From the NCBI RefSeq assembly GCF_000342045.1, contig NZ_AONQ01000012.1, forward strand, positions 1-64,000: a DNA stretch of 64,000 bases, read 5' to 3'. Under the pieces are notes generated by a model. It saw nothing but the letters and a program-made list of their open reading frames with translations. It searched no databases and was not told where the DNA came from. Position numbers and translations under genes: made by a program. Shown here one piece after another: positions 42,564 to 48,994 of this stretch (position 1 is the first letter of the stretch; every line of letters starts with the position of its first letter). The stretch is from Paramagnetospirillum caucaseum (GTDB lineage Bacteria > Pseudomonadota > Alphaproteobacteria > Rhodospirillales > Magnetospirillaceae).

Positions 42564-42899
42564 GTGTCCCATTTCCCCAACAAGTATCATGCCTTCATCT
42601 GCACCCAGCGCCGCCCCGACGGCCATCCGCGCGGCTGCTGCACCAGCAAAGGCGGCGGCCAGCCGCTGTTCAACCGCCTGGCGGAGAAGGTGACCGAGAT
42701 GAACCTGTGGGAGAAGGGCGTCAGCGTCGCGTCGTCCAGCTGCCTGGGCTTCTGCAAGTTCGGCCCGCTGATGGTGGTCTACCCCGAAGGCATCTGGTAC
42801 AAGGCCGAAACGGTGGAGGACATCGACGAAATCGTGTCGTCCCACTTCGCCAACGACACGCCGGTCGAGCGCCTGATCGTCACGCCCAGCAAGGCGTAG
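42564..42899 (+). CDS. Thioredoxin-like 2Fe-2S ferredoxin
   Basis: The 111-residue protein resembles the thioredoxin-fold [2Fe-2S] ferredoxins related to NuoE. Probable ligands are C13, C25 or C26, C60 and C64 (SSCLGFCKFGPLMVVYPEGIWY). A role as soluble electron carrier or assembly protein is inferred. The start is GTG after AGGGAGGTCGCAC. It is followed 19 bases later by a terminator. Confidence 0.9.
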   Translation: MSHFPNKYHAFICTQRRPDGHPRGCCTSKGGGQPLFNRLAEKVTEMNLWEKGVSVASSSCLGFCKFGPLMVVYPEGIWYKAETVEDIDEIVSSHFANDTPVERLIVTPSKA

Positions 42900-44449: not shown

Positions 44450-45163
44450 ATGCGACTGATCCGCCTCATCGCCAATCTGGGCTACGGCAGCCAGCGCGAC
44501 GTCAAGGCCATGATCAAGGCCGGGCGCGTCACCCTGGCCGACGGCACGGTGCTGGACGATGGCGCCAGGGCGGCGCATCACGAGATCCAGGTGGACGGCG
44601 AGCCGCTGGACCCGGCGCCCGGCCTGGTGCTGATGCTCCACAAGCCCGAGGATTACACCTGCTCCACCTCGGATCCCGGGCGGATCGTCTACGAGTTGCT
44701 GCCCGAGCGCTTCATGCGCCGCAATCCCGTCGTCGCGCCGGTGGGGCGGCTGGACCGCGACAGCTCCGGCCTGCTGCTGCTGACCGACGACGGGCCGCTG
44801 TCGCACCGCATCACCTCGCCCAAGCGCCACGTGCCCAAGACCTACGAGGTCACCCTGGCCCGGCCGCTGAACGGGGAGGAGGGGGCCATCTTCGCCGCCG
44901 GCACCCTGATGCTGCGCTCGGAGACCACCCCTTTGGCCCCGGCCGAACTGGTGGTCACCGGCCCCCAGACGGCGCGCATCACCATCACCGAGGGCCGCTA
45001 CCATCAGGTCAAGCGCATGTTCGCCGCCGTGGGCAACCATGTGGAGCGCCTGCACCGCGCCGCCATCGGCGGGTTGTCCCTGGGTGACCTGCCGGAAGGG
45101 CGGTGGCGGTGTCTTACCCCGGACGAGATCGCCCTGGTGCTTGGGTCGTCAGGCTGTCCCTGA
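44450..45163 (+). CDS. rsuA: RsuA/RluB-family pseudouridine synthase
   Basis: The 237-residue enzyme has an S4 RNA-binding segment (residues 1-60) and the catalytic motif GRLDRDSSGLLLLTDDG with the active aspartate. KTYEVTL and ITEGRYHQVKRMFAAVGN follow. It probably modifies 16S U516 but could be another RsuA-class site. CAGGAG precedes the ATG. Its last 50 bases overlap the convergent CULT-domain gene. Confidence 0.88.
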   Translation: MRLIRLIANLGYGSQRDVKAMIKAGRVTLADGTVLDDGARAAHHEIQVDGEPLDPAPGLVLMLHKPEDYTCSTSDPGRIVYELLPERFMRRNPVVAPVGRLDRDSSGLLLLTDDGPLSHRITSPKRHVPKTYEVTLARPLNGEEGAIFAAGTLMLRSETTPLAPAELVVTGPQTARITITEGRYHQVKRMFAAVGNHVERLHRAAIGGLSLGDLPEGRWRCLTPDEIALVLGSSGCP

Positions 45164-45500
45164 TCAGGCCGAAGAAGATGCGGGGCTGGTCGGGACCTTC
45201 GTAGCGCCAGCCCAGGTGCAGGTCGCAGGCCCGGCAGGAGCACAGCCGCCAGAGATAGCCCCGGAACCAGGTGAACTGGCCGCTGGCGGCGCCCAGCGCG
45301 ATGGCGCCCGGCGCTTCCTTGAAGCATTGCACGCGGAAGACCATGCCGGCGGGGTTGAAGAAGACGTGCTCGAACCCGCCGTTGATGGCCATTTCCCAGC
45401 GCCCCCTGGTCACCGGGGCGCCGCAGCGGGCGCAAAAATACTCGATATCCCGTTCCCATGCCGCCGCTTCGGAATGGAGCGACGGCACGTCACGGGGCAT
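45114..45500 (-). CDS. CULT-domain (cereblon-type) protein
   Basis: The 128-residue protein consists essentially of one CULT domain, the ligand-binding domain of human cereblon. Zinc cysteines are the pairs C23/C26 (CARC) and C89/C92 (CRAC). The aromatic cage residues are W78, W84 and W98 (FTWFRGYLW, HLGWRYEG), with HVFFNPAGMVFRVQCF between. Spacing agrees with my recollection of the M. gryphiswaldense single-domain homologue. It should bind cyclic imides or uracil-like ligands; its cellular role is unknown. The ribosome site is weak and the start could be slightly downstream. Confidence 0.88.
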   Translation of the reverse strand: MPRDVPSLHSEAAAWERDIEYFCARCGAPVTRGRWEMAINGGFEHVFFNPAGMVFRVQCFKEAPGAIALGAASGQFTWFRGYLWRLCSCRACDLHLGWRYEGPDQPRIFFGLIRDSLTTQAPGRSRPG

Positions 45501-45517
45501 GGAGGCCCCGCATGGGC

Positions 45518-46021
45518 TCAGTGATGGGATTTGGGGCCTTCAACGATGCGGTCCATCAGGGCGAGCAGCACGCCGGACACCACGAACACCATGTGGATGC
45601 CGACCATCCAGGCCAGATTCTCCTTGTTCTGTCCCTCGACGTTCATGAACGCCTTGAGCAGATGGATGCCGGAAATGGCGACGATGGAGGCGATCAGCTT
45701 GAGTTTCAGCCCGCTGAAATCCACCTTGCCCATCCAGTCGGGGCGGTCCTCGCTATCGCCGGTGTCGATCTTGGACACGAAATTCTCGTAACCGGCGAAG
45801 ATCACCATCAGCAGCAGGTTGCCGGCCAGCGACATGTCGATCAGGGAGAGGACCAGCAGGATCATCTGGTTCTCGTTCATATCGAGAACGAGGGGCGCCA
45901 TGTGGATCAGTTCCTGGCAGAACTTGACCAGCAGCATGACCAGCGACAGCACCAGCCCCAGATAGAACGGGGCCATCACCCAGCGGCTGCGGAAAATCAG
46001 CTTTTCGAGAAAATGTTCCAT
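45518..46021 (-). CDS. YqhA/UPF0114 family membrane protein
   Basis: The 167-residue inner-membrane protein has about four helices (ending WMVGIHMVFVVSGVLLALMDRI) and the family pattern MEHFLEKLIFRSRWVMAPFYLGL, then LIDMSLAGNLLLMVIFAGYENFVSK. This is the TIGR00645/YqhA family of unknown function. It is 17 bases upstream (in transcription order) of the CULT gene, so the two may be co-transcribed. Confidence 0.9.
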   Translation of the reverse strand: MEHFLEKLIFRSRWVMAPFYLGLVLSLVMLLVKFCQELIHMAPLVLDMNENQMILLVLSLIDMSLAGNLLLMVIFAGYENFVSKIDTGDSEDRPDWMGKVDFSGLKLKLIASIVAISGIHLLKAFMNVEGQNKENLAWMVGIHMVFVVSGVLLALMDRIVEGPKSHH

Positions 46022-46108
46022 GGGCTCTGTCTCGACCTCGACGGGGTTGCCGGAGCAACATGGTTGCCCCGGACCCGGCTGTCAAATGCTGCGGCGCAAA
46101 AAGACGGC

Positions 46109-47098
46109 TTACGGGGTCAGGGTCGCGCCCAGGATATGCTCGCTCTTGTGCACCACATGGGCGCCCTTGCCGACGATCAGCGGATCGGGGAGGTGAACCA
46201 GGCCGCGGTCCTTGCCGGGATAGTCCAGCGAGTTGAGGAAATGGAGCATGCAGTTGAGCCGCGCCCGCTTCTTGTCGTCCGACTTGACGATGGTCCACGG
46301 CGCATCGGCGGTGTCGGTGTAGAAGAACATGGCCTCCTTGGCCTCGGTGTAATCGGCCCACTTGCCCAGTGACGCCTTGTCGATGGGCGACAGCTTCCAC
46401 TGCTTCAGCGGGTCCCGTTCCCGCGACCTGAAGCGGCGCAGCTGCTCGTCCTGGGTCACCGAGAACCAGTACTTGTAGAGCTTGATCCCCGAGCGGACCA
46501 GCATGCGCTCCACCTCAGGCGTCTGGCGCATGAATTCCAGGTATTCGGCGGGACTGCAAAAGCCCATCACCCGCTCGACGCCGGCCCGGTTGTACCAGGA
46601 GCGGTCGAAGAACACCATTTCGCCCGAGGTGGGCAGGTGCTGGACGTAGCGCTGGAAGAACCACTGGCCGCGCTCGATCTCGCTGGGCTTTTCCAGGGCG
46701 ACCACCCGGGCGGCGCGGGGGTTGAGATGCTCCATGAAGCGCTTGATGGTACCGCCCTTGCCGGCGGCGTCGCGGCCTTCGAACAGCAGCACGAATTTCT
46801 GGCCGGTGTCGCGGGCCCAGTGCTGGACCTTGAGAAGCTCGGCCTGGAGGGCGGCTTTCTTGGTTTCGTACTCGGCGCGACCCATGCGGCTCTTGTAGGG
46901 ATATTCCCCGGTCTCGAAGGCATGGCGCACCGCCTCGGGGTCGTGGCGCATTTCCGCCAGTTCGTGGCGGGCCTGGGCGGCGGGGTTGGCCGGCTTCGGG
47001 GTTTTCTTCCGGCTGGAAACGGTGGGAGACGCCGTCTCGGCCGGAGCAACCGGAACCGTTGTGGTGTCGGTCTTGATGGTGTTCCCGTCGTCGGCCAT
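46109..47098 (-). CDS. ppk2: Polyphosphate kinase 2
   Basis: The 329-residue enzyme transfers phosphate between polyphosphate and nucleotides. A low-complexity N-terminus (about 1-40, T/P/K-rich) precedes the Walker A loop FEGRDAAGKGGTIKRFMEHL. Then come RGQWFFQRYVQHLP, the Walker B-type MVFFDRSWYNRAGVE and YKYWFSVTQDEQLRRFRSRE. It is single-domain (class I). The ATG at 47098 follows AGAGGGGGA, better than codons upstream. Confidence 0.94.
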   Translation of the reverse strand: MADDGNTIKTDTTTVPVAPAETASPTVSSRKKTPKPANPAAQARHELAEMRHDPEAVRHAFETGEYPYKSRMGRAEYETKKAALQAELLKVQHWARDTGQKFVLLFEGRDAAGKGGTIKRFMEHLNPRAARVVALEKPSEIERGQWFFQRYVQHLPTSGEMVFFDRSWYNRAGVERVMGFCSPAEYLEFMRQTPEVERMLVRSGIKLYKYWFSVTQDEQLRRFRSRERDPLKQWKLSPIDKASLGKWADYTEAKEAMFFYTDTADAPWTIVKSDDKKRARLNCMLHFLNSLDYPGKDRGLVHLPDPLIVGKGAHVVHKSEHILGATLTP

Positions 47099-47207
47099 GC
47101 CGTCCCCCTCTGATTTTCGGTCCATCCGGGGAAATCCTAGGCGCTTTATGGTTGTCGTGTCCATGCCGCCAAGAAAATACGGTCACGGCCGACGCGGGAG
47201 GCTTTCC

Positions 47208-47528
47208 TCAGTCGGTGCGCTGGATCAGGTGGAAGCCGAACGGGGTTTCCACCACGTCGCTGACCTCGCCGGATTTCAGCGCGAAGGCCGCCACCTCGAA
47301 TTCCGGCACCATGGCGCCCTGGGGGAACTCGCCCAGGTCGCCGCCGTCCTCGCCCGAGGGGCAGTCGGAATACTGGCGGGCCATCTGGCCGAAATCGGCG
47401 CCCTGATTGATCTCTTCCTTGATGCTGTTGATCTCGGTCAGGGCCTCGTCCTTGGAACGGGTGGCCTGGGAGCGGGACGAGCCCTTGTACATCAGCAGGA
47501 TGTGGGAGGCGCGGACGGTGGAAGACAT
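47208..47528 (-). CDS. Parvulin-type peptidyl-prolyl isomerase
   Basis: The 106-residue stand-alone PpiC/rotamase domain starts TVRASHILLMYKGSSRSQ and has CPSGEDGGDLGEFPQGAMVPEFEVAAF and the C-terminal VVETPFGFHLIQRTD. It lacks a signal peptide and so is cytoplasmic. It is eukaryotic Pin1-like in length and in the SRSQATRSK linker. GGAGAG lies just before the ATG. Confidence 0.93.
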   Translation of the reverse strand: MSSTVRASHILLMYKGSSRSQATRSKDEALTEINSIKEEINQGADFGQMARQYSDCPSGEDGGDLGEFPQGAMVPEFEVAAFALKSGEVSDVVETPFGFHLIQRTD

Positions 47529-47564
47529 GGAACTCTCCAATATAGGGAAGACGGTAATGTAGTA

Positions 47565-48362
47565 TCAGCGGCGCGGCTTCGCCAGTTCGTGAATGAGGAT
47601 GGCGGCGGTGGCCGCCACGTTGAGCGACTGGATGCGGCCCGAGCCGGGCAGGGTGACGATATCGTCGCAGGCGGCCAGGGTGGCGGGCGGCAGGCCGTCC
47701 TCCTCGTTGCCGAGGATCAGCGCCACCGGCTTGCCCGGGCGGTTGAGCACCTCGGCCATCGGCTTGCCCGAGCCCAGGGCGGTGCCGACAATACGGTGGG
47801 AATCCCTGAGACGTTTCAGGGCCGCAACGAATTTCTTGGCCTGAATCACCTCGACCCATTCCAGGCCGCCCTCGGAAACCCGCAGGGATGCCTCGGACGG
47901 GCCGGCCTGTCCCGGGTGGTCGGAGAGCAGCAGGCGCTCCAGGCCGAAGAAGGCCATGGTCCGGGCGATGGCCCCCAGGTTGTGGGGATTGCCGACGCCG
48001 TCCAGCACCAGCAGCGACTTGCCCTCCTTGGCCCACAGGTGGGCGTCGGCGGGGTCGAAGACACGGATGGGTTTGGGGCGGCTCACCGCCAGGATGCCGC
48101 CGTGCAGCGGCGAGCCGAGGATTCTGGTCAGTTCCTCGGCAGGCGCCATGCGATAGGGCTTGTGCGCCGCCGCCATGGCCTTGCACATCTCGGTGACCGC
48201 CTCCTTCATGCGTTCGTCGTAGAACAGCCGCTCGATGCGGGCCGGATCGTGGGCGAACAGGGCCTTGACCGCCGGCCAGCCCGCCACCTTGTCGCTGTCG
48301 GGCCGGATCGGGTCGGGGCGCTTCGGCGGCTGCTTCTTGTGCGGAAACGGCGCTCGTGCCAT
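47565..48362 (-). CDS. rlmB: SpoU-family RNA 2'-O-methyltransferase
   Basis: The 265-residue SPOUT-fold protein has a substrate-binding N-terminal part ([20 protein letters not shown]) and the knot motifs [41 protein letters not shown] and [16 protein letters not shown]. It is a TrmH/RlmB-type RNA ribose methyltransferase. The exact target is uncertain and the RlmB name is provisional. It is 36 bases from the parvulin gene. Confidence 0.85.
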
Positions 48363-48388
48363 TGCTGGGCCTTTCGGGCAAGGGTGGA

Positions 48389-48994
48389 ATGGGTGTTGTG
48401 ACTCGGCTGATCGTCTTCAACAAGCCCTATGACGTGCTGACTCAGTTCACCGACCGCGAGGGCGGGCGGGCGACGCTCAAGGATTTCATCACGGTGCCGG
48501 GCGTCTACGCCGCCGGACGGCTGGACCGCGATTCGGAAGGGCTGCTGGTGCTGACCGATTCCGGCCCCCTGGCGGCGCGGATCAGCGACCCGAAACACAA
48601 GCTGGCCAAGACCTATTGGGCCCAGGTGGAGGGAATTCCGTCCGAGGCCGACCTGGACAGGCTGCGGCGCGGCGTGGTGCTGAGCGACGGCCCGACCTTG
48701 CCGGCCGGGGCGCGGGCCATGGCCGAGCCGGAAAACCTGTGGCCGCGCATGCCCCCCATCCGCTACCGCGCCGCCATTCCCACCTCGTGGGTGGAGCTGA
48801 CGCTGAAGGAGGGCCGCAACCGCCAGGTCCGCCGCATGACGGCTTCCATCGGCTTTCCCACCCTGCGGCTGATCCGCTGGGCGGTGGGGGAGTGGAGCCT
48901 GGACGGTCTGGCGCCGGGGGAATGGCGCGAGGTCAAGCTTCCGCCAGCACCGCGCCCAGGCACCCCACGGCCTCGTCCAAAAGCTCGCGGCTGA
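48389..48994 (+). CDS. rluE: Pseudouridine synthase, RluE-like
   Basis: The 201-residue single-domain enzyme lacks an S4 domain. It begins [17 protein letters not shown], with the catalytic [19 protein letters not shown] and [24 protein letters not shown]. These match RluE, which modifies U2457 of 23S rRNA. ATG 48389 or GTG 48398 could start it. Its last 62 bases overlap the convergent rocD gene. Confidence 0.87.

Follow-up and report, generated by a model that had tools for sequence, protein, structure and literature searches.

A 64,000-nucleotide stretch of the Paramagnetospirillum caucaseum genome (contig NZ_AONQ01000012.1, positions 1 to 64,000; hereafter the window) encodes a stand-alone CULT protein, a 128-aa protein consisting of a single domain of the kind that binds thalidomide in cereblon. 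The gene lies on the minus strand at 45114..45500, with an ATG at 45500 and a stop codon at 45114-45116, and was characterized by open reading frame (ORF) analysis, phmmer, AlphaFold2 (AF2) and Foldseek. An initial annotation, made from the sequence alone, had placed the ORF at the same coordinates but without a strand; plus-strand frame 1 across the interval yields an unrelated translation. The protein is a new member of a described family and its kind is already known, since bacterial proteins made entirely of CULT, MGR_0879 named among them, are described in PMC4287342. MGR_0879 of the related magnetic bacterium Magnetospirillum gryphiswaldense, also designated MsCI4 ('cereblon isoform 4'), is the closest solved relative, already crystallised, and the window protein is related to it, probably as an orthologue. 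A thalidomide-type pocket appears to be present, the cage being predicted from residue register and fold. The present analysis adds the history of the locus, the patchy presence of the gene and, from searches made without patterns, evidence that the cage is retained.

Sequence and predicted fold of the CULT protein

A phmmer search against PDB sequences returned 47 matches at E up to 1. The top matches were eight MsCI4 constructs (best E 8.2e-34), followed by 38 chains named cereblon (E 8e-11 to 5e-9), which are longer than MsCI4; the remaining match, to one other protein, was weak. The MsCI4 alignment runs without gaps over residues 21-118 of the window protein at about 50% identity, and judged by sequence the likeness to MsCI4 and cereblon is more than chance. 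The AF2 model, built template-free from a 60-row alignment, reached a mean pLDDT of 85.6 and a pTM of 0.78, with pLDDT below 50 at residues 1-3 and 5-16. In a Foldseek search of the model against the PDB, MsCI4 entries took ranks 1-38 (E from 2.4e-12), with cereblon (CRBN) complexes after them; 5amh, MsCI4 with thalidomide, stood at rank 9 and superposed at 0.8 Å over 99 columns with 50% identity, and 9nr3, CRBN-DDB1 with GLUL-cN, superposed at 2.1 Å over 111 columns. The model thus predicts a beta-tent fold. The length of 128 aa, the phmmer match to MsCI4 over residues 21-118 and the fold match together bear out the initial description of a domain-only protein. The fusion of LON to CULT that defines cereblon proper was not found, as Pfam detects no domain in the 128-aa protein.

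Neither Pfam nor NCBIfam gave a match to the CULT protein at their usual thresholds, and PADLOC gave none at E up to 1; a role in a defence system was rejected for want of a PADLOC match. Yippee/Mis18 and other beta-tent proteins are the nearest relatives of CULT according to PMC4287342. A weak Yippee/Mis18 (PF03226) match was indeed present in all 10 CULT family members scanned (best 7.6e-05); at 15.9 bits against a gathering cut-off of 26.6, membership of the window protein in PF03226 was rejected. The N-terminal MPRD start is common to the genus relatives, and the codons of the gene gave dN/dS values of 0.16-0.39 in all nine comparisons with them, so the CULT gene is under purifying selection.

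The window protein and MsCI4 have in common the single CULT domain, the fold, the three tryptophans with a cage-base tyrosine, and the cysteine pairs. They differ at the position where the window protein has Gln75, MsCI4 Glu76 and human cereblon Glu377 (human and MsCI4 residues as given in PMC8900816). The C-terminal CULT domain of human CRBN likewise shares the fold and the cage (W380/W386/W400), but CRBN carries a LON domain that the window protein lacks, and Phe76 and Tyr100 of the window protein stand against human His378 and a Phe, respectively. The ubiquitin ligase served by cereblon is not known from such bacteria.

Conservation of the tryptophan cage

The residues named in the initial annotation, namely W78, W84 and W98, two CxxC pairs and an FNPAGM motif, are each present at the numbers given. 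The ungapped alignment puts the putative cage tryptophans, all encoded on the minus strand, in register with those of MsCI4 and human cereblon: W78 (45267..45269; MsCI4 W79, human W380), W84 (45249..45251; W85, W386) and W98 (45207..45209; W99, W400). Each is found in 60/60 rows of the alignment used for modelling and in 53 of 54 sequences of a second set, in which the one exception is truncated. The base of the cage would be formed by Y100 (45201..45203, minus strand; Y101 in MsCI4, a Phe in human cereblon). A Tyr here is expected to give one extra hydrogen bond to the imide; among the 60 sequences, 26 have Tyr at this position and 34 have Phe. The two cysteine pairs, C23xxC26 (45423..45434, minus strand; 60/60 and 54/54) and C89xxC92 (45225..45236, minus strand; 60/60 and 53/54, one truncated), are presumed zinc ligands. 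The FNPAGM motif of residues 48-53 (45342..45359, minus strand) corresponds to a hairpin tip named in a published legend, its letters being taken from the present alignment, in which N49 and G52 are invariant (60/60 each) and P50 is kept in 59/60. The complete list of invariant positions in the 60 rows comprises C23, C26, N49, G52, C59, F76, W78, F79, G81, W84, C89, C92, G97, W98 and F109. The residue before F76 is Glu in 44/60 and Gln in the window protein and three others.

The 60-row set was gathered with two peptide patterns, one of them spanning F76-W84, so that its conservation was partly selected by the search itself. The second set comprises 54 distinct sequences from 59 loci, obtained without patterns by searching whole genomes with a profile and with tblastn; it overlaps the first in part, includes the window protein and relied on a profile built from the 60 sequences. 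All three cage tryptophans occur in 53 of these 54 pattern-free sequences, the exception, L040, being truncated upstream of them. On this sequence evidence, the predicted cage is kept across the family. In L040 itself, from genome G022, the CULT copy lies about 10 kb inside the locus. Its similarity to CULT ends after about 58 residues and unrelated in-frame residues follow; either the gene is decaying or the assembly is at fault.

Distribution of the CULT gene

Within the family, 20 of the 55 genomes carry a CULT gene, including the window genome and 9 of the 16 others of its genus, and its presence in the order is patchy (82/317 genomes). In a sample of the phylum it was found in 21 of 398 genomes, with the window genome counted in. 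Full matches scored far over the threshold, with one copy per genome; a second match in G169 is an end-of-contig fragment, and the matches in G022 and G160 are partial only. A scan of 84,980 species genomes yielded at least 59 CULT loci, a lower bound because exact patterns were demanded. By tree labels these fall into Pseudomonadota (29), Thermodesulfobacteriota (22), Myxococcota (4), Spirochaetota (2), Nitrospirota (1) and 'Ignavibacteriota' (1).

In the CULT tree the window protein groups with those of Phaeospirillum sp. GS7 348 and Paramagnetospirillum. Taxonomic labels are strongly clustered on the tree, requiring 11 changes against a minimum of 5, with none of 200 shuffles as low; transfer, mis-binning or poor labels may account for the excess changes. 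The 'Ignavibacteriota' locus (L063, VBWB01000004.1), from a Stygiobacter bin, carries a Magnetospirillum-type CULT gene, and its taxon label is probably wrong. The protein of the sulfate reducer Desulforhopalus sp. IMCC35007 (L066) groups with alphaproteobacterial proteins with support of 97/89 in the midpoint-rooted tree, and its position points to a possible transfer. Spread by phages or plasmids was rejected, as searches of 50,697 phage records and 72,556 plasmid records gave no match. Among viral contigs the sole CULT-like match was weak and covered 41 residues; it lies on L021 (IMGVR_UViG_3300032167_000051), which is 146 kb long and catalogued as viral.

Genomic context in the window and across the family

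In the window, a same-strand run at 45114-48362 comprises genes for a spoU-type methyltransferase, a PpiC-type parvulin (ppiC), a PPK2 polyphosphate kinase, the YqhA membrane protein and CULT, with gaps of 17 to 87 nt. Two promoter-like sites occur in the run against 0.4 expected, counted as consensus matches only, and one of them (47568-47539) lies directly before ppiC. The yqhA gene (45518..46021, minus strand; YqhA/UPF0114) ends 17 nt upstream of CULT; the initial annotation had named it as a same-strand neighbour. It is preceded by the PPK2 gene (46109..47164, minus strand) and ppiC (47208..47528, minus strand), and a second pseudouridine synthase gene (48374-48994, on the strand opposite to CULT) lies beyond spoU. 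At its 3' end CULT overlaps the gene of an RsuA-like pseudouridine synthase (44450..45163, plus strand) by 50 nt, tail to tail; the initial annotation had noted this overlap, and because it is convergent the two genes do not form one sense transcript. A 2Fe-2S ferredoxin-type gene (42564..42899, plus strand) forms the convergent border of the conserved block.

To describe this setting across the family, 12 window proteins were searched against the 20 CULT loci. Among same-strand genes upstream of CULT, the parvulin gene is the most persistent, found in 19/20 loci and within 2 kb in 17/20, and the convergent ferredoxin-type gene lies within 3 kb downstream in 17/20 (one of the three exceptions, L022, ends at a contig edge). 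The yqhA gene adjoins CULT in only 4 of the 20 genomes, the RsuA-like gene adjoins its 3' end in 6, and PPK2 lies between ppiC and CULT in 6; the spoU-type gene and the second pseudouridine synthase gene stand farther upstream in 12/20, the latter 1.5-8.3 kb away. The stable family setting is thus ppiC, CULT and the convergent ferredoxin-type gene. A function read from yqhA or the RsuA-like gene was accordingly not upheld by synteny.

The gap between ppiC and CULT is 2-7 nt in 6 of the 17 genomes measured, including the MsCI4-like copy of G021. Where other genes intervene, YqhA lies 14, 4 or 2 nt before CULT (17 nt in the window) and PPK2 4 nt (L026) or 3 nt (L025) before it. As PPK2 and YqhA occupy the close position of ppiC, they are most simply explained as inserted into a ppiC-CULT pair, and the YqhA and RsuA-like neighbours look like lineage-specific insertions. 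Counted by eye, only 3 of the 98 residues aligned with MsCI4 differ in the G021 copy, which stands in the same ppiC-CULT-ferredoxin locus; the window locus differs from it by PPK2 and yqhA before CULT and the RsuA-like gene after it. The ppiC gene of G021 (L036:9178-9816) encodes 212 aa with two tandem parvulin domains, compared with a single domain in the window, and 212-aa ppiC-cluster frames likewise occur in L035, L037, L038 and L039. In G025:C41, also of the window's family, CULT is flanked by ppiC and a ferredoxin-type gene.

For comparison, the 19 best-scoring of 30 ferredoxin-type loci fetched from CULT-negative genomes were examined with 1.5-kb flanks. None of the 19 contained a significant CULT match, and in 6 of them ppiC stands beside the ferredoxin-type gene without CULT (L101, gap about 85 nt). 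Since this adjacency exists without CULT, the linkage of ppiC to CULT need not be functional. As the locus is common to both groups, our guess favours losses of CULT over gains.

Loci in other lineages

Loci L022-L100 number 79, or 67 after removal of 12 duplicates; three lacked a picked CULT ORF, which left 64 for counting. Neighbour clusters derive from simple ORF picking, and loci that are related do not count as independent. Upstream, the adjacent gene shares the strand of CULT in 44/64 loci and lies within 60 nt of CULT or overlaps it in 34/64, these close neighbours representing 16 clusters. Downstream, the adjacent gene has the opposite strand in 39/64, and a close same-strand gene occurs in 5/64. 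With 16 different upstream clusters among the 64 loci, no fixed operon partner was found, and the CULT gene behaves as a passenger ending varied gene runs. Pfam annotation of ten neighbours identified, among others, EI24/CysZ, GTPase EngA, a GNAT acetyltransferase, an M23 peptidase, a cation ATPase, an N-acetylmuramoyl-alanine amidase and TauE. Four loci (L051, L054, L059 and L060) have a gatB-like gene (c66, read from sequence) upstream of CULT and an Amidohydro_3 gene (Pfam, L054 only) downstream. In L072, L076, L082 and L093 an asparagine synthase gene (c61; Pfam on L093 only) adjoins CULT on the other strand.

Possible function as a reader of cyclic imides

Strictly kept pocket residues and the lack of a fixed partner gene suggest a ligand that is made in many cells. 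We hypothesize that the CULT protein reads cyclic imides purely by binding, the likeliest target being a C-terminal aspartimide or glutarimide on damaged proteins, and hold this tentatively, with somewhat less than even confidence. The binding mode is taken from homology, while the natural ligand and all steps after binding are inferred. The protein would be a soluble beta-tent protein without catalytic activity, presumably pinned by zinc, in which three tryptophans close around a ring bearing a -CO-NH-CO- imide edge. The likeliest natural ligand would be a cyclic imide at a protein C-terminus, which could arise by cyclisation of Asn or Gln with chain cleavage or by the action of Pcm on a C-terminal Asn. 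CULT would serve as a reader or adaptor, marking, shielding or handing over the damaged proteins. The literature on homologs describes how an imide is held: in MsCI4, two backbone hydrogen bonds grip the imide edge, together with Tyr101 in Tyr-type proteins (PMC8900816), the equivalent of Y100 here, and a third of the domain folds only on ligand binding (PMC4449219). Cereblon recognises C-terminal cyclic imides, some of them made by PCMT1 on a C-terminal Asn (PMC12117711; preprint PMC11974815), and by analogy bacterial CULT proteins may read such ends as well. Ligands of this type fit because they need only protein ageing and because a PCMT-family gene is present in all 80 carriers tested. A further point counted in favour is the parvulin gene, the most persistent neighbour in the family, with its 2-7 nt gap to CULT in 6 of the 17 genomes measured. 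In five genomes of the Magnetospirillum-type genus g15 (G021, G023, G024, G025 and G032) a Lon gene was observed about 18-21 kb from CULT, just beyond the loci scanned, a linkage that is a lead at best.

Several observations weigh against this proposal. The co-occurrence with PCMT is uninformative as support, a PF01135 match being present in 80/80 CULT-bearing genomes and in 78/80 CULT-negative ones (G022 and G160, with partial CULT matches, were excluded from the 82 positives, and the negatives were 80 of 235, about every third). With window-genome proteins as queries, no relative of Pcm, Lon or the LON-domain protein was detected in the 79 CULT loci (67 of them non-redundant), whose flanks extend about 8-10 kb to each side and less at contig ends. 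Lon lies more than 300 kb from CULT in G038, G042 and G043 of the window's genus, and its linkage in g15 is loose. The ppiC linkage may be positional, given the 6/19 loci that have it without CULT, and the upstream gene varies in other lineages. Most relatives manage without CULT (only 82/317 carry it), and the bacterial ligand is proposed by analogy with cereblon and MsCI4.

An extension of the cyclic-imide proposal, which we consider unlikely, would make CULT part of a bacterial C-degron pathway foreshadowing cereblon. Imide ends arising from damage or from the activity of the bacterial methyltransferase Pcm would be handed by CULT to Lon or to a stand-alone LON-domain protein, and the LON and CULT halves would have been fused into one protein later, in eukaryotes. 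Lon and a stand-alone LON-domain frame are encoded elsewhere in the window genome. Such frames (below 500 aa, counted by eye) occur in 20/20 CULT-bearing family genomes, one of them partial, and in 30/35 without CULT; at a Fisher p of 0.15 this co-occurrence is permissive and was set aside as non-discriminating.

The main rival to cyclic imides is uridine. CULT would then sense or buffer uridine, uracil or a related nucleoside through the same cage, its free and liganded states signalling pyrimidine status, a possibility to which we give a minor but appreciable weight. RsuA-like enzymes, which might seem to connect CULT to such ligands, leave their product in RNA rather than free, and an RsuA-like neighbour is limited to 6/20 genomes. 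The initial statement that the M. gryphiswaldense homologue binds imides and uridine in vitro agrees with PMC4449219 for thalidomide and uridine: the affinity of MsCI4 for uridine is comparable to that for thalidomide, and deoxyuridine was co-crystallised; PDB 4v31 is among the Foldseek hits. Glutarimide and uridine binding is thus known for MsCI4 and expected by homology for the window protein, whose cage residues are identical. No pyrimidine gene was noticed as a recurrent neighbour, with only some neighbour clusters annotated, and the gene found several positions upstream in four Rhodospirillales loci is purF-like (c52, read from sequence), which points to purine synthesis. It is improbable, though still within reason, that the protein instead binds a small imide metabolite of the hydantoin, dihydropyrimidine, succinimide or glutarimide type, scavenging it or delivering it to an enzyme. 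According to PMC4449219, MsCI4 selectively recognises the glutarimide or uracil moiety and no other part of its ligands, and the amidohydrolase gene (c51; Pfam on L054 only) 1-3 ORFs downstream of CULT in L051, L054, L059 and L060 would suit such a role; this linkage is confined to those four loci, however, and an imidase gene was not a recurrent partner among the clusters inspected.

Two explanations tied to the window's own genome are far less probable. Cooperation with the adjacent YqhA and the overlapping pseudouridine synthase, from which the initial annotation had sought a function, is very doubtful. The yqhA gene may be co-transcribed with CULT here, the synthase gene does overlap it, and the second synthase gene accompanies CULT at a distance in 12/20 genomes; but YqhA is adjacent in 4/20, the RsuA-like gene in 6/20 and convergent, and by neighbour clusters neither is near CULT outside the window's genus, while the second synthase gene stands in the same block without CULT in 3 of the 19 CULT-negative loci. 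A role in magnetosome biology is more doubtful still. The idea arises because the window genome and several other carriers look magnetotactic; with nine magnetochrome-domain (PF18509) matches, the former probably is. Magnetochrome matches occurred in 44 genomes at E up to 0.001 and in 38 over the Pfam cut-off, and the 38 with best E up to 2e-9 were used. CULT was present in 17 of these 38 and in 65 of 279 without a strong match (Fisher p 0.009), but species are not independent, and p was 0.10 for genomes of the family and 0.22 for the others. Moreover, 65/82 CULT genomes have no strong magnetochrome match and 21/38 magnetochrome genomes have no CULT, so the link was judged weak and confounded.

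Implications

The CULT domain of human cereblon is a major drug target. The initial annotation had called the bacterial role undescribed, and no paper on the physiological role of bacterial CULT was found in the openly licensed literature. The gene reported here adds a member with intact cage residues, in a genome with magnetosome-type genes, and the comparison carries a warning that neither yqhA nor rsuA should be used to infer function. Natural pairs for testing are available in relatives that have or lack CULT at the same locus. The family shows one stable locus, patchy presence, a near-strict single copy, a strictly kept pocket and no operon partner found to be fixed; the patchy single copy, the kept pocket and the lack of such a partner suggest a protein that works by itself, on a ligand that many cells share.
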